Made by a program: the position numbers and the translations under genes. From a virus: a stretch of 27,511 nt of DNA. Each line of letters begins with the position of its first letter. Within the stretch, counting starts at the first letter, position 1. Below the pieces are notes generated by a model, which had not been told where the DNA came from, ran no database searches, and saw only the letters and a list, made by a program, of their open reading frames with translations. The stretch covers positions 1 through 27,511 of the IMG/VR virus record IMGVR_UViG_3300030331_002327. One strand, 5' to 3'. Shown here piece after piece: positions 4,953 to 15,891 of this stretch.

Positions 4953-5786
4953 TTATAATGTTGCGTCAAACAACATCTCGACTCCATAAGAGTCATCAAG
5001 CTCTGCAACGCCATATACCGCAGTTGCGTTTAGCTCGTCTGCCCTCAAACTAGCATCCCTTTGTACTTCAATCTCAAAGTCACGCTTCATCGCTATGGCA
5101 AGTGCCTCTGGTACAAATACCGCACCTTTAGCATCCCCAGAACCATCGACTGTAATGTTTGATGATTGATAGATATCAATACCAGCAAGTGAACCGACAA
5201 AACCGTTCATCATTGCCTCGTTCTGAGCTTCTCCACCATTCGGATTTGCAAACGTGTTTGTTAAGTTTGCTTGTAGTTGGAAAGCATGGAAAGGGTGTAA
5301 TACTGCCGCGACTGTTCCAGGAGCATTTGCAGCCCTCAGAGTAGCCGCTGCTTTAAAGATGTCAGCAACCGTTATCTCTTGAGATGCAGCACCGAGTGAT
5401 GTGCTAAATCCATCAAACAATGCAATTAAATCCTGATCCATTTTCTTTGCGATAGAATTACCCAATACAGTTCCCAATTCTACTGCTGGATTACCTGCGC
5501 CCATCCTAGCAACGTCAGTGAGTAATACTTGCGCACCTACCTCTTTGATTGTTGCTGTAACGCTTGAAGTGCTAACCGTAGAACTAGACATATCTGTTCC
5601 TTCGGTCAAATCAGCCGCTGCGACAGCGGGATATTTCGGCACTTGTATCGTCTTGCCAGCCTGTGCGCCAATGTTATAGTTTGTGACCAATCCAAGCATT
5701 ATGGATTGTTCCTCTGCTGTAAAACGAGCCTGTAAGATAATATTCGCAAACAGATCGTCTAAAGTTGTTGAAGTTGTTGCAGCCAT
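4953..5786 (-). CDS. Major capsid protein (HK97 fold)
   Basis: 277 residues, close to the usual size of compact HK97-fold coat proteins. It starts MAATTSTTLDDLFANIILQA and has an N-arm, an E-loop-like stretch AGKTIQVPKYPAVAAADL, the spine helix region VELGTVLGNSIAKKMDQDLI, and the P/A-domain strands around TVAAVLHPFHAFQLQ and IDIYQSSNITV; near the end DASLRADELNATAVYGVAELD. The pattern is of the N4 gp56/P22-like coat group. It follows the scaffold gene and is itself followed by a strong terminator. No protease gene is seen nearby and there is no delta-domain, consistent with a separate scaffold. Confidence 0.88.
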   Translation of the reverse strand: MAATTSTTLDDLFANIILQARFTAEEQSIMLGLVTNYNIGAQAGKTIQVPKYPAVAAADLTEGTDMSSSTVSTSSVTATIKEVGAQVLLTDVARMGAGNPAVELGTVLGNSIAKKMDQDLIALFDGFSTSLGAASQEITVADIFKAAATLRAANAPGTVAAVLHPFHAFQLQANLTNTFANPNGGEAQNEAMMNGFVGSLAGIDIYQSSNITVDGSGDAKGAVFVPEALAIAMKRDFEIEVQRDASLRADELNATAVYGVAELDDSYGVEMLFDATL

Positions 5787-7458: not shown

Positions 7459-8858
7459 TAGACCTCAATCTCTGCCTCTTCGTCATTATCTGTAAAGTCT
7501 CCTGCTACCTCTCCTGGTTGTCCTTCGATTTCTGTATGTACTTGATCTAATATTTGATCATCAAGAACCAAATCAGCAATCTTCTTATCGACCTCATTAG
7601 TGAGAGTATTTGATCTTATGCCCGATGCTTTTAACTGCTGCAAGAAATTTAATTCTTTTTCGTAATCTCGTATGTCAAATGAGTCTGGATAACTTATTTC
7701 AACATCTGGTTTGACACCTTGCCAATCGCAAAAAAACGTCCACATTTGCTCCTCTGCCAGTTCTAATATGTCAGCCTTCTCACTGAGCTTTGCATTGAGT
7801 AATTCAAATTCAGTCTGCATAGCAACTCCAGACTGTGTAATCACCTCAGTTCCGCGAACTGCTCCCATATGAGCCATTCTGTTAATAGCTTCTACTTTAT
7901 CAGAAATTGAATTTCTTACCGCGTCTAAATTAGAGCCACTAGGTTGCATTTGATAGGGTTTTAAACCTTGATCTAAATCATCTGGTAGATTAATGACCGC
8001 ACCAGCTCCAGCACTAGCATCTGTTCCATATGTCTTAACTAATGTGGGATGATTTGAGATTCTTATGAGCTGCTCAATCTCTGAGTATTCTTGATAAATA
8101 CTACGTTGCATATAAGCGACATCTGATAGATCACTAATACCAATACCGCGAACCACTGATCTTTGTGCTGGTACGAAAACAGCGGGTATCTTACCCAATG
8201 CGTTTTCTACCGAATCAATGAGCGTTTCTGTTTCGTGATTGATTACTCGATACGTATCAATTTTTTCTCGTGTAAATACTTTGTAGTAAGTTTCTTTTTC
8301 TGTTTCAGACAGATATTGAATAGATTCACGAACCTTTAGATATGAAAGAACAAACCGACCCGATGCACTGCGTTCATATTTCCAATCAAACACGTTTTCT
8401 GGCGTAAACAATGTTACATAAGGGCGTATATCTTGATCTAACTCCTCGGCTTTTGTCTGTGCGTTAGAACGTGGTTTATCAACAATAATCCATACATTGC
8501 CATACACGCTCGACCAAATTTGTGCAGTTCTCAAAAAAGCATTGAGTGAACGACCATCTAAATCAGCATCATTAATAAACGATTCGAGTGCTCTATCGTT
8601 TGCCAAACTATTGTAATTTCTTGTAGGTGGAACTCTCCAAAGAAAACTGGAGTAAATGTGTACGATATTACGACAATGGTTATCGATTGCTGTTAGGTCG
8701 ATACGTCTAGCGTAAGAATCTTTGTCCTCGTTTACATATCGAGTAAGGTATTGTCCGTCTTTATAATCTTGTCCACCCATGTAAGAGCGCAGAAAAAACT
8801 CCCATGATTCTTTATTATCATCGTAGTCTTTTGATGTGTATTCAATGTCTGTTTGCAT
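7458..8858 (-). CDS. Portal protein
   Basis: 466 residues, typical portal size. It begins MQTDIEYTSKDYDDNKESWE and contains YVNEDKDSYARRIDLTAIDN, SSFLWRVPP, then SVYGNVWIIVDKPRSN and YVTLFTPENVFDWKYERSAS, a layout shared with DUF4055-type portals. A long helical crown/stem part (EYSEIEQLIRISNHPTLVKT, SDKVEAINRMAHMGAVRGTE, ELAEEQMWTFFCDWQ) follows. The end is acidic (DFTDNDEEAEIEV). It lies between the large terminase and the minor head protein. The portal forms the 12-fold DNA entry ring and docks the terminase. Confidence 0.9.
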   Translation of the reverse strand: MQTDIEYTSKDYDDNKESWEFFLRSYMGGQDYKDGQYLTRYVNEDKDSYARRIDLTAIDNHCRNIVHIYSSFLWRVPPTRNYNSLANDRALESFINDADLDGRSLNAFLRTAQIWSSVYGNVWIIVDKPRSNAQTKAEELDQDIRPYVTLFTPENVFDWKYERSASGRFVLSYLKVRESIQYLSETEKETYYKVFTREKIDTYRVINHETETLIDSVENALGKIPAVFVPAQRSVVRGIGISDLSDVAYMQRSIYQEYSEIEQLIRISNHPTLVKTYGTDASAGAGAVINLPDDLDQGLKPYQMQPSGSNLDAVRNSISDKVEAINRMAHMGAVRGTEVITQSGVAMQTEFELLNAKLSEKADILELAEEQMWTFFCDWQGVKPDVEISYPDSFDIRDYEKELNFLQQLKASGIRSNTLTNEVDKKIADLVLDDQILDQVHTEIEGQPGEVAGDFTDNDEEAEIEV

Positions 8859-8859
8859 A

Positions 8860-10092
8860 TTATGTCCAACGCTTTGGTTGCTCTACGTCATAGATTGTCT
8901 GAACTGGGAATAAATAGGAAACTAAATAACCCAGAGCATCATTCATATGATCGTAACCGTCATCTTTATTGGGTATTGAAGTACCCTCTTTGTAAGTCTG
9001 CCTTTCAAGGGATTTAATCACTTGTTTGCAGTTCGCTGTTATAAATAGATGCCTTTCGCCATCTGCCGCTTTTAAACGTGCGTTTACGCTGTTAATCCGA
9101 TCTCTTACGACATCGTGTTTTGATTTTGCTTTAACGTGGAATCCAGCGTTTTGCAAAATGCTCAAATCTGTTCTACCACCCGCACTGGTTTTCCTTTGTC
9201 TTGCAGCGGGGTCTGGAAATATCACTATTTGTCTATGTGGATAGCGATGGTTAATCTCTTTTACCATCTCATCTGTGTTTGATCCATAGATGACAATTTC
9301 ATCAACGCAAGTCAGTGTATTTCCTTTACGTATGGCAACAACCGCACTCATAGGGTCAGTGTTAAAGTCCATCCCAATCAACAAAATTTCGTGTTGATGT
9401 TTCGCAGTTGCGATTACTGTCTCTTCTCTCGCAAAGTTATAATAAATAAGACCACTATAAGTAACAAACGCAGCCTCATATTCTTGCTTAAAGGTGCGCT
9501 CATCTAAATCTGATTTGGCTTGGTCAATCTCATCTGGGAGTACGTTTTCCCCCTCGATGGTCGTATATTGAAACGATGCCCATTCATCTTGTTTATCAAC
9601 ACCTTTTGCCCATAAATCATAGAAATGATTACGCCCTTTCGGTGTACCAATAAATAATGCTCTAGTTGGTGATTCGTTAGAGTGCCTATCTGATAAAGAG
9701 GGTCGTAATACCTCAAACCACGCCTCTGGGCGCATATCTGCAAACTCATCTAATACACAAAAATCTAACGCTCTGCCTCGTAAATTATTAGGTTTTTCTG
9801 CGCCTTTTAAATAGATTATTGATCCATTGATAAGCGTTATGGTCAATGCTGTTTCATTTGTTTTAGCAATGTATTCCTCTGGAATCATATCTAAAAGCAT
9901 CTGCCACTGTATTTCTTTACTCATTCCGTAAGTGGGTGAGCAGTAGAAACAGTTTTTATTGTTTCCAGAAATGGCTGCTCGTAATAATTCAGCAGCGGCT
10001 AGATATGTTTTGCCAAATCGCCTACCCGCAACAACCGTTCTGAATCTTGCGTTGTTTAGAAATATCTCACTTTGTGGGAGCGTTAGCTGCAC
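8860..10092 (-). CDS. terL: Terminase large subunit (ATPase-nuclease)
   Basis: 410 residues. ATPase domain: Walker A VVAGRRFGKTY with K28/T29, a motor region with YCSPTYGMSK, Walker B VLDEFADM with D115 and E116, and coupling motif LFIGTPKG. RNase H-like nuclease domain: acidic residues at D242 (LLIGMDFNTDP), D294 (IFPDP) and the final DHMNDALGYL (D381, D385). All catalytic positions expected of TerL are present. It packages DNA through the portal, encoded directly downstream on the operon. The start overlaps the small subunit by 26 bases. Confidence 0.96.
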   Translation of the reverse strand: MQLTLPQSEIFLNNARFRTVVAGRRFGKTYLAAAELLRAAISGNNKNCFYCSPTYGMSKEIQWQMLLDMIPEEYIAKTNETALTITLINGSIIYLKGAEKPNNLRGRALDFCVLDEFADMRPEAWFEVLRPSLSDRHSNESPTRALFIGTPKGRNHFYDLWAKGVDKQDEWASFQYTTIEGENVLPDEIDQAKSDLDERTFKQEYEAAFVTYSGLIYYNFAREETVIATAKHQHEILLIGMDFNTDPMSAVVAIRKGNTLTCVDEIVIYGSNTDEMVKEINHRYPHRQIVIFPDPAARQRKTSAGGRTDLSILQNAGFHVKAKSKHDVVRDRINSVNARLKAADGERHLFITANCKQVIKSLERQTYKEGTSIPNKDDGYDHMNDALGYLVSYLFPVQTIYDVEQPKRWT

Positions 10093-10447
10093 GACTGTCT
10101 AATGTAATATTGATAGGTGGTATTTCTTTAACTTCGGTTTCTTCTTCTTTCCAGTGCGCTTGGGTTTTTAAATAAAAGATATTAGCTGTGACGTTCCCGT
10201 CCATTGCTAATTTAACTAAATTATTACCCATATTCGCTATTTGTTTTATGCGTCCTTTTTTATATGAGGCGTAAACTTCGGGTTGACGTTTTTCAATTTG
10301 CTTTAGTGTTGTTAATGAAATACCAAAATAATCAGCTATTTGTTGTTTGGTTAATACACTTGCAAGTGCTTCAAGCTCTATTATCTGTATATCGGATAAT
10401 TCTGCTTTTGGTCTGCCCCCACCTTCGCCTTGCTTTCCGCGCTTCAT
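10067..10447 (-). CDS. terS: Terminase small subunit
   Basis: 126 residues. The N-terminal GRPKAELSDIQIIELEALAS followed by LTKQQIADYFGISLTTLKQI is a helix-turn-helix as found in small terminases, which recognise the packaging site. The rest is helical (KGRIKQIANMGNNLVKLAMD) with AHWKEEETEVKE, typical of the W-x-E region near the C-terminus. It lies immediately upstream of and overlaps the large subunit. Confidence 0.85.
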   Translation of the reverse strand: MKRGKQGEGGGRPKAELSDIQIIELEALASVLTKQQIADYFGISLTTLKQIEKRQPEVYASYKKGRIKQIANMGNNLVKLAMDGNVTANIFYLKTQAHWKEEETEVKEIPPINITLDSRAANAPTK

Positions 10448-10605
10448 TTCTTTATTAATTTCTGTACCGTATCTGATTCAAAAATTCTTATACCTAACCA
10501 AACAATCGTAAATAAACTTGCAATCGGTGGTAGCCATTGAGCTAGTGATAATACACCAGTTCCCGCTGCAACGTAATCAATTATGTCTTTTGTCTCACTC
10601 GTCAT
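10444..10605 (-). CDS. Small membrane protein, holin-like candidate
   Basis: 53 residues from ATG at 10605 (MTSETKDIIDYVAAGTGVL), a start that overlaps the endolysin stop by 11 bases. An earlier frame start is less likely because it would overlap more. One clear hydrophobic segment (about residues 22-38, LPPIASLFTIVWLGIRI) follows a short acidic amphipathic N-terminus; the C-terminus is basic. Its position right after an endolysin suggests a holin or holin-related membrane protein. A second holin-like gene exists at 17863, so the division of labour is unknown. Confidence 0.65.
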   Translation of the reverse strand: MTSETKDIIDYVAAGTGVLSLAQWLPPIASLFTIVWLGIRIFESDTVQKLIKK

Positions 10606-11071
10606 CTGATTTCTTCTTTGGTTTGCTATCAAAATAATCTATTTTTCCTGTATCAAATAAATGCGCCTCTGATTTTCTTCTACGCTCTAACCCTTTTGAC
10701 AGCTTACCTTTCACCAGATTCCATCTGACTAATTCTTTTGTAACACCTTCCAAATCGTTGCTATTCATTACTAATAACATGGTTGATCGCCTTAACGCTC
10801 CACAACCTAAATTAAAACACCAGGATACGATAGCATCCCATTGATGCTGTAATAACTCGACCCTTATTAATCTAGTCATATGAGTTTCGATCATTTGTAT
10901 ATCATATAATAAATTTTGATCAGCCTCTTTTTGTGTAACTTTATCGCCTTCTTGTACGTGTTTTGTGTGACCGTATCCATGCGTCCAAACATTTGCTGAA
11001 CACTCATATGCTTCGAGTTTGCATCCTTCAAAATGTTTAATTAAATCAATACCTTGCTGTGATGTTCTCAT
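10595..11071 (-). CDS. Endolysin, GH24 lysozyme with E-C-T triad
   Basis: 158 residues from ATG at 11071, chosen because GGAGGT lies 7 bases upstream. Earlier in-frame starts lack such a site. It begins MRTSQQGIDLIKHFEGCKLE and continues to HGYGHTKHV. The catalytic Glu is E15; 8 residues later is C24 (in AYECSANVW) where the T4 enzyme has Asp, and 5 further is T30, which fits the E-8-[DC]-5-T rule of P22-type phage lysozymes. It cleaves peptidoglycan glycan strands. No signal peptide or signal-anchor is visible, so release needs a holin. First coding gene of the late transcript. Confidence 0.92.
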   Translation of the reverse strand: MRTSQQGIDLIKHFEGCKLEAYECSANVWTHGYGHTKHVQEGDKVTQKEADQNLLYDIQMIETHMTRLIRVELLQHQWDAIVSWCFNLGCGALRRSTMLLVMNSNDLEGVTKELVRWNLVKGKLSKGLERRRKSEAHLFDTGKIDYFDSKPKKKSDDE

Positions 11072-11094
11072 TAATAGAACCTCCATAATATTTA

Positions 11095-11126
11095 GGGCAA
11101 CGGTTCGGGAGCGAGACACGTTACCC
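11095..11126 (-). promoter_or_regulatory. Hairpin in the endolysin leader
   Basis: On the minus strand GGGTAACG can pair with CGTTGCCC (8 bp with one G-U), enclosing a 16-nt loop that contains TCG CTCC CGA, which can form a small inner stem. There is no T-run, so it is not a terminator. It lies just upstream of the endolysin ribosome site and may stabilise the mRNA or tune lysis timing. Only predicted by eye. Confidence 0.45.
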
Positions 11127-11153
11127 AAGGTTTAATAAAAAACCTGAAATCAC

Positions 11154-11177
11154 AAAAAACCGCCCACGAGGGGCGGT
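11154..11177 (-). terminator. Intrinsic terminator in the late leader (tR'-like)
   Basis: On the minus strand ACCGCCC pairs with GGGCGGT (7 bp, 5-nt loop), followed by six T. It stands about 50 nt after the predicted late transcription start and upstream of endolysin. It would stop both read-through from the early operon and transcripts of the late promoter unless an antiterminator acts. Confidence 0.88.
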
Positions 11178-11234
11178 CATATTTGGGGATATACAAATAA
11201 AAATTAAGAACTAAAACTATCGCTAGTTTGGGAC

Positions 11235-11263
11235 TTTATAACAAATTTTGTGAGGGTTGTAAA
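11235..11263 (-). promoter_or_regulatory. Late promoter (pR'-like), sigma70 type
   Basis: On the minus strand TTTACA (11258-11263) and TATAAA (11235-11240) are separated by exactly 17 bases, each one mismatch from consensus. The -35 follows the stop of the 52-residue gene at once. The start is expected near 11228, and the terminator follows about 50 nt later. The next genes in this direction are endolysin, terminase and structure. No other promoter of this quality was seen by eye in the window. Confidence 0.72.
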
Positions 11264-11422
11264 CTATTTACCAACTCGCCTCATTGCTAACTTATGCGCC
11301 TCTGTAAACGTCATTCCAGCAAGCATTTGTTTACGCATAAAATCCATATGTTTTTTTGTATGATGTTGGGAGTGCCTACGCATTGCGCTTTCTTGTCTTT
11401 TTGTCAATTTTTTTATTGCCAT
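11264..11422 (-). CDS. Small basic protein with TFTEAHKLAMRRVG motif
   Basis: 52 residues. It begins MAIKKLTKRQESAMRRHSQH, has the repeated His/Lys stretch HHTKKHMDFMRKQML, and ends MTFTEAHKLAMRRVGK. The pattern L-T-x-R-Q-E-x-A-x-x-R-H-S-x-H-H-T-x-x-H-M-x-x-M-R occurs in small phage proteins of unknown function. Ribosome site AGAGGT lies 7 bases before the ATG. It is the last gene before the late promoter, whose -35 touches its stop codon. No function can be given. Confidence 0.7.
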   Translation of the reverse strand: MAIKKLTKRQESAMRRHSQHHTKKHMDFMRKQMLAGMTFTEAHKLAMRRVGK

Positions 11423-11432
11423 TTTGTAACCT

Positions 11433-12284
11433 CTAATCGTGACATAAACAATCTAAACTTTCTTCATGTTCAAATAAATTAAGTTGATTTTCTTTTAAAG
11501 TTTTCATTTCAGCAAACGAAATATCATATTTAAATGTTTTTTTTGTTTTATTTTCTTGTTTTATCCACCAATCAGCAAGTTTTGGTTGTTTACTCATTAT
11601 GTGCATAAGTTGTTTTTTTCCTTTTAAAAAACATAAATCACAATTACCTAATATTGTATGTCCATTCGATGCAATTAAATTTAAATCAAAGTTATTATTA
11701 TTCCAAAAATTTTGCACATCATGTTTTGTTGTTTTTGCATCGTACAAAGGACATAAAAAATCTTGATTTTCTTTTCTTGCTTTTACCCTATGTACTCGGT
11801 GTGGTTCGTCAAATCGCAAACCTAAAATATGATCTGGATTTTCTAAATTATTAATTTTTTCAAACCATTTAATTGCTCTTTGTTTTAACAAAAAAGTGCA
11901 GAAACGATTTGTCATATTAGGTAATTTTTTATAATAATTAATTAATTTTTCAAAAGGTTCACCATTTCGTGAACATTGATCAAAATTTGTTTCTTTGTAT
12001 TTAAATTTCCATTCTCTGCTTGTTTCGTTTGGTTTATACCCATCAGACTGAATCGAATCAAACTCAATCCAATTAATTTTGACATTCCATTTATTTTGGC
12101 AATCTTCTACAAAATTATACGTTTGATCAATTTCTTTTCCAGTGTTTGCAAAAACAACATGGCAATTTTTTGGCAAAACATTTTCGTGTGCTTCTAAAAT
12201 TTTTTTTAACATAAATCCAGATGTGCGACCCCCACTAAAACTTATGATGGAATCGTTTTTTAAAAAAAATGGGTTTTTAATCAT
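11433..12284 (-). CDS. PP-loop ATPase of the PAPS-reductase family
   Basis: 283 residues, notably AT-rich with many Lys, Asn and Phe. The PP-loop SFSGGRTSG is at residues 15-23. Further family features: VVFANTGKE, an NRFCTFLLKQRAIKW stretch (C129, a C-x-x-x-L-K region that binds substrate in this family), GLRFDEPHRV, and a Cys-rich C-terminal part (C178 in FLCPL, C215-x-x-C218 in GNCDLCFLKG, C279-x-C281 at the end) that may hold an Fe-S cluster or zinc. The family activates sulfate or adenylates tRNA/DNA substrates. In a phage, DNA or tRNA sulfur modification or a nucleotide role are possible; none is shown. It overlaps the Q-like gene by 4 bases. Confidence 0.8.
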   Translation of the reverse strand: MIKNPFFLKNDSIISFSGGRTSGFMLKKILEAHENVLPKNCHVVFANTGKEIDQTYNFVEDCQNKWNVKINWIEFDSIQSDGYKPNETSREWKFKYKETNFDQCSRNGEPFEKLINYYKKLPNMTNRFCTFLLKQRAIKWFEKINNLENPDHILGLRFDEPHRVHRVKARKENQDFLCPLYDAKTTKHDVQNFWNNNNFDLNLIASNGHTILGNCDLCFLKGKKQLMHIMSKQPKLADWWIKQENKTKKTFKYDISFAEMKTLKENQLNLFEHEESLDCLCHD

Positions 12285-12811
12285 CGTAAACCTAATTTAA
12301 TAATTTCTTGAATATCACTCTCTAGCATCGAATAATGAACTAATAACTTTGCTAATCTTGGTTTCCAAATCTTTCGGCTGCGCCATTGCGATACCGATAA
12401 TAATTTTGCTAGTTTTCTAATTGAAATATCTTTTTCTCCCACACCTATACATGATGGACAAACAATCATGGTATTTTTACTTGGTACGTGTCCAGTTCCC
12501 TTGCATTTGTTACATCTTGGGTTTTTGATTGATATCTGTAAAGCAACCAACCCTAAAATATGGGGTGTAAATTCACTTTCCGTTTTGTGTAAATCAAAAT
12601 TTTCTTTTTTAGCCAATTGAATAGCGTAAGTATTTAACTCTGCTTTCACATTTTCATCTAATGCAAACTTTGCTAATCCAAAGAGATAGGTAAATCTATC
12701 GCAATGAGCTAATGCAGCGGCAACATCTGACGGTGTAATCGTTTGAGTTCCTTTGCTTACTTGCTGTAAAGGTGGTGAACCCGCTGCAAGCATCGCCAAT
12801 AACTCACTCAT
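12281..12811 (-). CDS. Q-like late antiterminator candidate (zinc-finger protein)
   Basis: 176 residues. The centre has two Cys pairs in a DnaJ-like setting: RCNKCKGTGHV (C100, C103) and CPSCIGVG (C118, C121), so one zinc is likely bound. A helix-turn-helix-like stretch IRKLAKLLSVSQWRSRKIWK follows. This Cys pairs plus C-terminal DNA-binding helices layout fits phage 82-type Q antiterminators. It sits just upstream of the PP-loop gene, a small basic gene and the late promoter/terminator. The function is inferred from layout and domain pattern, not from close sequence identity. Confidence 0.62.
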   Translation of the reverse strand: MSELLAMLAAGSPPLQQVSKGTQTITPSDVAAALAHCDRFTYLFGLAKFALDENVKAELNTYAIQLAKKENFDLHKTESEFTPHILGLVALQISIKNPRCNKCKGTGHVPSKNTMIVCPSCIGVGEKDISIRKLAKLLSVSQWRSRKIWKPRLAKLLVHYSMLESDIQEIIKLGLR

Positions 12812-12944
12812 CTTTTTTTTCCGCTTTTAATTTTTTAATTCGTTCTAAAAAATCAATCGCTGTTTGCAAATTATCAACGGTATATTCTGACTGTATCTCA
12901 ACTTTTACTTTATGAGCATTGTAAATAATTTCTTTAAAGGACAT
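12804..12944 (-). CDS. Small helical protein, 46 residues, unknown function
   Basis: It reads MSFKEIIYNAHKVKVEIQSE and then YTVDNLQTAIDFLERIKKLK, ending AEKKDE. GAGGTG lies 5 bases upstream of the ATG. Its TGA falls inside the first codons of the Q-like gene (8-base overlap), so the two are probably translated together. The C-terminal half is an amphipathic helix with alternating hydrophobic and basic residues. I do not recognise the family. Confidence 0.65.
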   Translation of the reverse strand: MSFKEIIYNAHKVKVEIQSEYTVDNLQTAIDFLERIKKLKAEKKDE

Positions 12945-12952
12945 ATCGCACC

Positions 12953-13333
12953 TCAATTATATGATATTGGTTGATATAACTCGTCTCGCTCCATCTTTTT
13001 AAATTCTTCTCTGTAATGCTTTGAAATTTCTGCTCTTAACGCCTTATTTGTTTGCATTTTCACATTCCATTTTTCGCGTAAAATATCTAAATGTCCTTTT
13101 CCTAAATATGTCTCTAGCCAATTAGTGAACTCTAATGGGTTTTCTGTATATTTGCGATGACAAGAATGACACATACATACTGCATTATCTAAACTCCATC
13201 GCACTGATTTGGCAGCTCTACCGAAAATATGACAACACTCCATTCTGCCTTTTTGATGACAATTTTCGCACGTATAAGCGGCTTTCGCTCTGACAACATC
13301 GCTAAACCATTTATCAGCTGCATCTCTTTTCAT
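12953..13333 (-). CDS. HNH-type zinc protein, NinG-like
   Basis: 126 residues. The N-terminal half carries two Cys pairs (TCENCHQKG with C22/C25; VCMCHSCHRKY with C55/C58) that would bind zinc, and between them ECCHIFGR with H35, then N50 and H59, the arrangement of an HNH nuclease core. The pattern C-x-x-C ... C-x-H-I-x-G-R ... N-x-x-x-x-C-x-x-C-H resembles lambda NinG/Rap and related HNH proteins. It overlaps the methyltransferase 3-prime end by 20 bases. With NinB-like and Q-like neighbours a recombination role is more likely than a homing nuclease, but this is inference. Confidence 0.72.
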   Translation of the reverse strand: MKRDAADKWFSDVVRAKAAYTCENCHQKGRMECCHIFGRAAKSVRWSLDNAVCMCHSCHRKYTENPLEFTNWLETYLGKGHLDILREKWNVKMQTNKALRAEISKHYREEFKKMERDELYQPISYN

Positions 13334-14141
13334 TTTGCTCTAACAACTTTTGATTTAGTGTCAACCATGCTTTTGCAGCTGTTTGGGGAACGACTCCGTT
13401 GCCCAATAATCTAAGTCTGTCCACTTTGTAGGGATACCCATCATCTGCTCTACCCATTCTGGGTTTAAGTCGTGCATTTTCCCAATTATGGGCTTTACTT
13501 CCTCTTTTTGCGGGAAAATCCTTACTTGAACTGGTAGACCAGGTGAATCTCGATTGTGCGCTGACGCAATATCTCCATCGTCTCTTGAATCTCGCGCCAC
13601 TGGCGTAGCCCAAAATAAAAACTCTTTTTCTGTGGTGACTTGCTCCAACTTCACTCGCTGAGAATATTCCAAACGTGCTTGCATAACCCATTGACTCCAA
13701 ATCTTCGATGACATCTCGCAATCCAAGTGTGATATGTCCTTCAACATTTTCAAAGAAACACCAAATAGGTCTAATTGTTTTGATGTGTTCTCGTATGTAC
13801 TCCCAAAGGTGTCTTGGGTCTTTGTTACCTCTTCTTTTACCACCAGTTGCCAATGAGAATGGTTGACATGGATAGCCTCCAGTAATGACGCTAACTTTGT
13901 CTCGAAAGATGTGCGATGGAAAGGTTTTAATATCCGAGTAAATAGTTGCTGCATCCAACTGATTCGATTCCATCTTAGCAACCAAGTTTGCAATCGCGTA
14001 AGCTTCGATCTCCACATAAGTGATGACTCGATGTTTAAACCCAGCAATGTCAAGTCCTCTTTCGATTCCACCATATCCAGAGCAAAATGAGAGGACAGTG
14101 GGTGCGTTTTTGGTATGATCCACATAACTAGTTTTTTCCAT
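13314..14141 (-). CDS. DNA (cytosine-5) methyltransferase
   Basis: 275 residues with the expected motifs in order: I SFCSGYGGIERGL (about 18-30), IV GGYPCQPFSLATGG with the catalytic C92, VI FFENVEG (129-135), VIII ASHHRKRVFILG (167-178), and X LRLLGNGVVPQTAAKAW (243-259). The target recognition part between VIII and X is short. The motif IX/X block GRADDGYPYKVDRLRLLGNG matches the common phage form. It would methylate C5 of cytosine in a short specific sequence, protecting phage DNA from host restriction. A second long frame overlaps the gene (see 13361-14170). Confidence 0.93.
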   Translation of the reverse strand: MEKTSYVDHTKNAPTVLSFCSGYGGIERGLDIAGFKHRVITYVEIEAYAIANLVAKMESNQLDAATIYSDIKTFPSHIFRDKVSVITGGYPCQPFSLATGGKRRGNKDPRHLWEYIREHIKTIRPIWCFFENVEGHITLGLRDVIEDLESMGYASTFGIFSASEVGASHHRKRVFILGYASGARFKRRWRYCVSAQSRFTWSTSSSKDFPAKRGSKAHNWENARLKPRMGRADDGYPYKVDRLRLLGNGVVPQTAAKAWLTLNQKLLEQNEKRCS

Positions 14142-15564: not shown

Positions 15565-15696
15565 TTTTACGCCCTTTTTTGATTTTTATGTAGATTAAAT
15601 CATTAAAATAATAAAATCAATTATATGAGTACAATTAAACTTGTTATTCGATTTGAAATGAATTACGATTATATAACAAATTGGGAGTACAAAGTG
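15565..15696. promoter_or_regulatory. Divergent control region between early operons
   Basis: About 130 very AT-rich bases between the small membrane gene (minus) and the XRE gene (plus). Candidate minus-strand -10: TATAAT at 15620-15625, with no good -35. A plus-strand candidate TTGTTA (15642) / TACGAT (15664), 16-bp spacer, is weak. TTGTTAT (15641-15647) and ATAACAA (15673-15679) form a 7-bp inverted repeat whose half-sites are 32 bp apart, a possible operator for the XRE protein. Promoter calls here are weak. Confidence 0.4.
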
Positions 15697-15891
15697 ATGA
15701 TTGGTAATAAATTTATAAACAAATTAATACAAGAAAACGGATTAACTCAAGAAAAAATATCTGAGAAATCTGGTGTGAAGCAACAAACAATTAGTCGTTT
15801 AAAAATTGGTCAATCAAAGTCTCCCTCATTTGAAACAGCAAGAAAATTATCGATAGCATTTGATGTCGATATTGCAGAGATTTACAAATAA
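15697..15891 (+). CDS. XRE-family transcriptional regulator (Cro/CI type)
   Basis: 64 residues from ATG at 15697 (MIGNKFINKLIQENGLTQEK), preceded by GGGAG at 9 bases. In-frame starts upstream (15625, 15658) lie in the control region and lack ribosome sites. The whole protein is a helix-turn-helix domain: LTQEKISEKSGVKQQTISRL then PSFETARKLSIAFDVDIAEI. No multimerisation or peptidase domain follows, so it is Cro-like in size. First gene of the plus-strand operon, next to the divergent region it probably controls. Confidence 0.85.
   Translation: MIGNKFINKLIQENGLTQEKISEKSGVKQQTISRLKIGQSKSPSFETARKLSIAFDVDIAEIYK

Follow-up and report, generated by a model that had tools for sequence, protein, structure and literature searches.

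The late-gene switch of bacteriophage lambda combines the antiterminator Q, a zinc-ribbon and HTH protein, with the promoter pR' and the terminator tR', which delimit the 6S RNA, in the gene order nin, Q, pR', tR', lysis and terminase. The lambda leader is roughly 194 nt long and is terminated before the lysis genes, the promoter has a conserved spacer, and a -10-like element is found in the initial transcribed region. Lambda Q also requires a -35-like element before the pause, which is absent in other lambdoid phages. Q proteins have been split into three families, named after 21Q, lambda Q and 82Q, and a zinc finger, present as an insertion in lambda Q, separates the latter from both AlpA and 82Q (PMC9371919). 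The Q families of phages 82 and 21 follow the same working principle, and 21Q resembles lambda Q only in having an HTH. The AlpA/PalpB/tB system of Pseudomonas aeruginosa likewise has a terminator before the lysis genes and belongs to an SOS-linked circuit, in which the gene of the antiterminator is the target of AlpR, a DNA-damage repressor. The known binding elements of Q and AlpA (QBE and ABE, respectively) are located between the -35 and -10 elements of the target promoters. Direct action of LexA on phage promoters has been described in other settings, namely the antirepressors of 186 (tum), N15 (antC) and the Gifsy phages, and the P1 promoter of GIL01.

The locus described here is part of the window, i.e., the whole 27,511-nt stretch of viral DNA that was analysed. 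On its minus strand, a -35 element TTTACA (11258-11263), a 17-bp spacer (11241-11257) harboring a candidate Q-binding element, and a -10 element TATAAA (11235-11240) extended by a TG at 11243-11242 make up a pR'-like promoter with a predicted +1 at position 11228. A short, 6S-like leader RNA of about 75 nt, both ends of which are predicted, would run from there to 11153 and include a tR'-like intrinsic terminator, the hairpin GACCGCCC-CTCGT-GGGCGGTT at 11178-11158, followed by six T. The hairpin lies 30 bp before the gene of a lysozyme (endolysin; minus strand, 10595-11128; PF00959, E 2.3e-41), and the leader RNA folds better than its shuffled versions (z = -2.28). The preliminary description had proposed, for this place, a sigma70 promoter TTTACA-17 bp-TATAAA, a leader of about 75 nt ending at a GC hairpin with six T, and a position before the lysis and head operon; the promoter is indeed present at 11263-11235, the leader and hairpin are predicted as described, and lysozyme is the first gene downstream.

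Scanning the 4 kb around the cassette for consensus promoters yielded 10 where 15.6 were expected, and the corresponding terminator scan found 2 for an expectation of 2.5, neither being above chance. Under a stricter definition, by which terminators had to have five or more G-C pairs in addition to a T tract, the minus strand of the window (27.5 kb) contained two, compared with 0.05 in block shuffles. The second of these, at 4944-4925, lies within the late operon directly 3' of the gene at 4953-5786, and it is likely to be a further target of antitermination or to serve dosage control. The chance-level scans are in line with a reading of the cassette as an ordinary constitutive promoter followed by an attenuating leader or a small RNA before the lysis operon, in which case the zinc-HTH protein encoded upstream would be an unrelated DNA-binding regulator. 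The cassette was judged to be real because of comparative evidence, not because of the consensus scans.

Relatives were gathered by searches with Q, lysozyme and terminase. In 35 of 35 distinct Q-bearing contigs, the interval that separates Q from the lysis or terminase genes contains a promoter whose spacer is 17 bp long and whose -10 element is TG-extended, its -35 element, TTGACA or similar, being conserved in all of them, and a hairpin terminator follows 35-59 nt after the -10 element, again without exception. The stems of these terminators vary while their pairing is kept, as in CCGCCC..GGGCGG, CCGCT..AGCGG and AGCCTAGA..TCTGGGCT. In contrast, none of 28 Q-less relatives with the same terminase and at least 3 kb of sequence upstream of it carries the cassette at nine or more of twelve promoter matches, a slightly different criterion in that the TG was not demanded of them; the 28 include the cultured pelagiphages HTVC111P and HTVC202P, which were chosen as having the closest terminase among phage records. 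The Fisher P value of 1.6e-18 for 35/35 versus 0/28 is not to be taken literally, as the contigs are related and the scan criteria differ. Conservation of the cassette among Q-bearing contigs partly reflects shared descent, and in many members other genes are inserted between Q and the promoter. When the promoter pattern of the relatives that carry a LexA-type box (see below) was run blind against 2.9 million viral contigs, 25 matched, 23 of them in this phage group, and every one of these 23 with enough upstream sequence has a Q gene; the other two (L187 and L194) represent one shared chance match in coding sequence and were discarded. This strict co-occurrence with Q is not what an ordinary promoter with an attenuated leader would lead one to expect, and that reading is thus considered unlikely.

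A different cassette was seen in one relative (L076, from the same contig as L018), about 1057 bp before the terminase, with TTGACA-17-TATTTT, a CACTGTTTATATTGACAGTG box and another hairpin. No Q was recognisable in its 7.6-kb contig, and this cassette may use another antiterminator.

An alignment of 14 representatives revealed two conserved sets of spacer columns, at index 14-16 and 20-21. The first is an AAA, at 11249-11247 in the window, the outer two A being present in 14/14 representatives and the middle one in 13/14; the second is the TG at -15/-14, which is invariant, and the neighboring spacer positions vary. From its conservation and its place between the -35 and -10 elements, the AAA is a candidate Q-binding element. 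Three to four bases past the -10 element, all 14 representatives share a hexamer whose second base is A and whose sixth is T (YANNNT), for which no other offset comes near 14/14 and none of 2000 shuffles reaches 14. In the window this is CAAACT (11225-11230, minus strand; about -2 to +4), a candidate -10-like sigma-pause element, and other representatives have TACAGT, TAGAGT, TAGCAT, TAAGAT or TATTGT. In AlpA-dependent antitermination, a -10-like CACGAT that similarly straddles the start site, at -1 to +5, needs the same two bases, positions 2 and 6. An earlier proposal that AGCGAT, near +6, might be the pause motif was not borne out, as the three closest relatives have AGCAAT in place of this hexamer (11224-11219) and more distant ones do not keep it, CAAACT being the conserved candidate. 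The sequence TATAAA-GTCC-CAAACT leaves no TTGAC-like hexamer before the putative pause, nor is any -35-like element conserved there in the relatives. The locus differs from lambda in having a leader of about 75 instead of roughly 194 nt, a TG-extended -10 in all members, and no evident -35-like element before the pause. Conserved positions in the spacer and in the pause-like hexamer, exactly as in Q systems, also argue against an ordinary constitutive promoter.

The protein encoded upstream (minus strand, 12281-12811) has 176 residues, with predicted N-terminal helices, a zinc ribbon (CNKCKGTG..CPSCIGVG, residues 100-125) and a C-terminal HTH; the four zinc cysteines are invariant among 12 relatives. 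Its C-terminal half matches PHROG 127, 'anti-termination protein Q-like' (E 2.8e-6), as does that of nine of the 12 family members (best E 3.6e-8, C-terminal half only), whereas PF03589 was matched weakly by four of the 12 (best E 0.005), below its gathering score; lambda Q itself is a member of both. Direct comparison of the family profile with lambda Q gave an E value of 5.4e-5, a probability of 66.6% and 25% identity over the aligned part. No match to Q homologues in phage GenBank records was obtained at a cut-off of E 1e-5, a PDB sequence search with the single protein returned only DnaJ zinc-domain noise, and with the profile lambda Q came up at a non-significant E of 0.98-1.5. This modest sequence similarity is in line with the reading of the protein as an unrelated regulator.

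An AlphaFold model, computed from 12 sequences from the window and the related loci, reached a pLDDT of 78.8. The value falls below 50 for residues 1-22, which lie in the segment that should build the antitermination ring at the RNA exit channel. Compared with the PDB, the model has lambda Q as its top match (7ubn, Foldseek E 1.1e-3, prob 1.00; 7ubm, VIA Z 10.5 over 137 residues at 3.4 A), AlpA as its second (Z 8.0), and unrelated proteins thereafter (Z 3.6). According to this model, the protein belongs to the lambda-Q fold group, with a zinc ribbon inserted before the HTH, and its lambda-Q fold speaks against an unrelated DNA-binding regulator. The protein had been described as having a zinc finger, an HTH and a layout like that of phage 82 Q. 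The zinc finger and the HTH are retained, but the 82-like assignment is not, as lambda Q is the best match and PHROG 127 the family; the structure search has nothing but lambda Q and AlpA at its top, and 82Q was judged by its description alone. A lambda-like label was preferred because the inserted zinc finger is placed in lambda Q (PMC9371919), while AlpA is devoid of one.

An HTH protein might also regulate such a promoter in the classical way, by activating or repressing it, instead of by processive antitermination, and the position of the conserved AAA and TG inside the promoter spacer would suit this role. Such a protein would have no need of a terminator, yet one is found 35-59 nt downstream in every member despite the changing stems, and the fold relatives lambda Q and AlpA are antiterminators, so that this possibility appears very improbable. 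The best-supported reading, from the co-occurrence of cassette and Q and from the lambda-Q fold, is the lambdoid pR'/tR' late control proposed at the outset: the window very probably contains a Q-dependent late-gene switch of the lambda-Q type.

The surrounding genes read as lambdoid in their order, which is O-like replication protein, NinB/Orf, cytosine methylase, NinG/Rap, Q, lysozyme, terminase small subunit (10067-10447; phrog_309, E 5.7e-17), terminase large subunit (8860-10092; phrog_2, E 1.9e-52) and portal, both terminase genes being on the minus strand. The phage had been said to show otherwise little similarity to lambda, an impression that needs correcting, since O-like, NinB/Orf, NinG/Rap, Q, lysozyme and terminase genes occur in the lambda order. 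Its large terminase subunit is 53% identical to that of Pelagibacter phage HTVC111P. As in many members, and in contrast to lambda, genes are inserted between Q and the promoter. One is a PAPS-reductase-like gene (minus strand, 11433-12284; PF01507, E 1.2e-9; phrog_424, E 8e-47), which occupies this interval in the window and in L002 and is missing there in L003 and L004; its distribution suggests a recent insertion or loss. The other is a 52-aa basic open reading frame (minus strand, 11264-11422; phrog_31838, E 1.2e-14), conserved in L002-L004, whose stop codon abuts the -35 element. Homologues of its product that are 48-57% identical are found in cyanophages MED4-117/184 and P-HS2 and in pelagiphages HTVC111P and EXVC031P. 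A small Cro/CI-like HTH regulator is encoded in a divergent region at 15625-15891. No integrase was named among the window proteins scanned against PHROGs, and an Rfam search gave no match. The minus-strand late genes extend leftward to the edge of the record, with the tape measure at 1983-187, and resume at the right end with tail genes from 27313 onwards, a layout that would fit a genome that circularises, with a single late transcript across the junction.

According to the proposed mechanism, host RNA polymerase with its housekeeping sigma factor would initiate near position 11228 at an extended -10 promoter that is constitutively active, and sigma region 2 would then re-bind the -10-like element at about -2 to +4, causing the polymerase to pause about ten bases downstream. 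If Q is missing, transcription would stop at the hairpin at 11178-11158 and give an RNA of about 75 nt. The Q-like protein, made late in the early leftward operon, would bind the spacer between the -35 and -10 elements and load on the paused polymerase at the RNA exit channel. The Q-loaded polymerase would then read through the tR'-like terminator and later ones, e.g., that at 4944-4925, into the lysis, head and tail genes.

The relatives add a feature to this scheme. In 26 of the 35 Q-bearing contigs (L012, L016, L055, L061, L065 and L166 among them), a LexA-type box CTGT-N8-ACAG (e.g., CACTGTATATATTGACAGTC) overlaps the -35 element, and a second, degenerate box lies exactly 15 bp upstream of the first. 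The box is absent from the window, L002-L004, L162 and L173-L176; no CTGT-N8-ACAG occurs anywhere in the window, where the best site near pR' scores -6.9. With a matrix made from 13 E. coli LexA sites, the boxes score 12.8-18.0, compared with 15.5-23.4 for the E. coli sites themselves, and the next best sites in the searched records reach at most 11.0. These boxes may be bound by LexA of the host, which would make the relatives' promoter one under SOS repression. The sequences could instead be a phage repressor site or an extra Q-binding site, a somewhat less likely interpretation of the ACTGTAT tandem and of CTGT-N8-ACAG. The LexA of the host may have another specificity, and the -35 element covers half of the ACAG arm, which would be conserved anyway. 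Box and -35 element vary separately, however, since L061 and L068 have the box with a weaker TAGACA, and L162 and L173 have TTGAC without a box. Moreover, none of the box-bearing records of the group that were searched whole contains a second CTGT-N8-ACAG, and the ACTGTAT tandem is confined to the late promoter. Finally, a blind BLAST search of phage records with a 201-bp promoter query from L012 gave a match of 89% over 37 bp (E 4e-4) to Felsduovirus RE2010, in the region upstream of an 'SOS induction modulator' gene, where the same 15-bp tandem spacing is found.

The Q tree places the window and the boxless L002-L004 in one fully supported clade with the box-bearing L148-L151, which is why the box was probably lost in the window's clade. 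In the window, the 52-aa reading frame extends to the -35 element, where the relatives have the box. On balance, we favor the idea that the late promoter of the relatives is a LexA-repressed SOS promoter that needs two keys, DNA damage and Q, and that in the window's clade the LexA key is lost, a small marine-phage gene having taken its place up to the -35 element, and Q alone is kept. In the two-key variant, tandem LexA boxes would cover the -35 element, DNA damage in the host would free the promoter, and Q would carry the polymerase past the terminator. This arrangement would differ from the AlpA circuit in that the LexA-type box lies on the target promoter of the antiterminator, and from the known LexA-controlled phage promoters, which are antirepressor or early promoters, in that it concerns a Q-type late promoter. 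A limited literature search found no report of LexA acting on such a promoter, which is weak evidence of absence.

Bacterial genomes also contain matches to Q. Weak matches were obtained in 4 of 369 gammaproteobacterial genomes, two of which (L180 and L182) are doubtful as the extracted stretch translates with stops, and the sole relative that is close enough comes from Shewanella, where the gene precedes a type VI secretion operon. In this locus (L147), a distant Q-like protein (7989-8543; phrog_127, E 1.3e-13) is encoded upstream of type VI secretion genes of the VipA, VipB and VasE families (9273-13797), which a Q-type antiterminator possibly controls.

The window adds a member to the lambda-Q type of late switch, which was itself already known, and carries the lambda Q paradigm into uncultured marine phages that have their closest terminase relatives in pelagiphages. 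Dozens of natural variants show which promoter bases matter, namely the spacer AAA, the TG of the extended -10 and the YANNNT pause element. The LexA-type box of the relatives, together with Q, suggests a two-key variant of the switch that combines SOS and Q. If the LexA reading is true, SOS control would act directly at the late promoter and not at an antirepressor or early promoter, and the window's clade would provide a natural loss-of-operator comparison.
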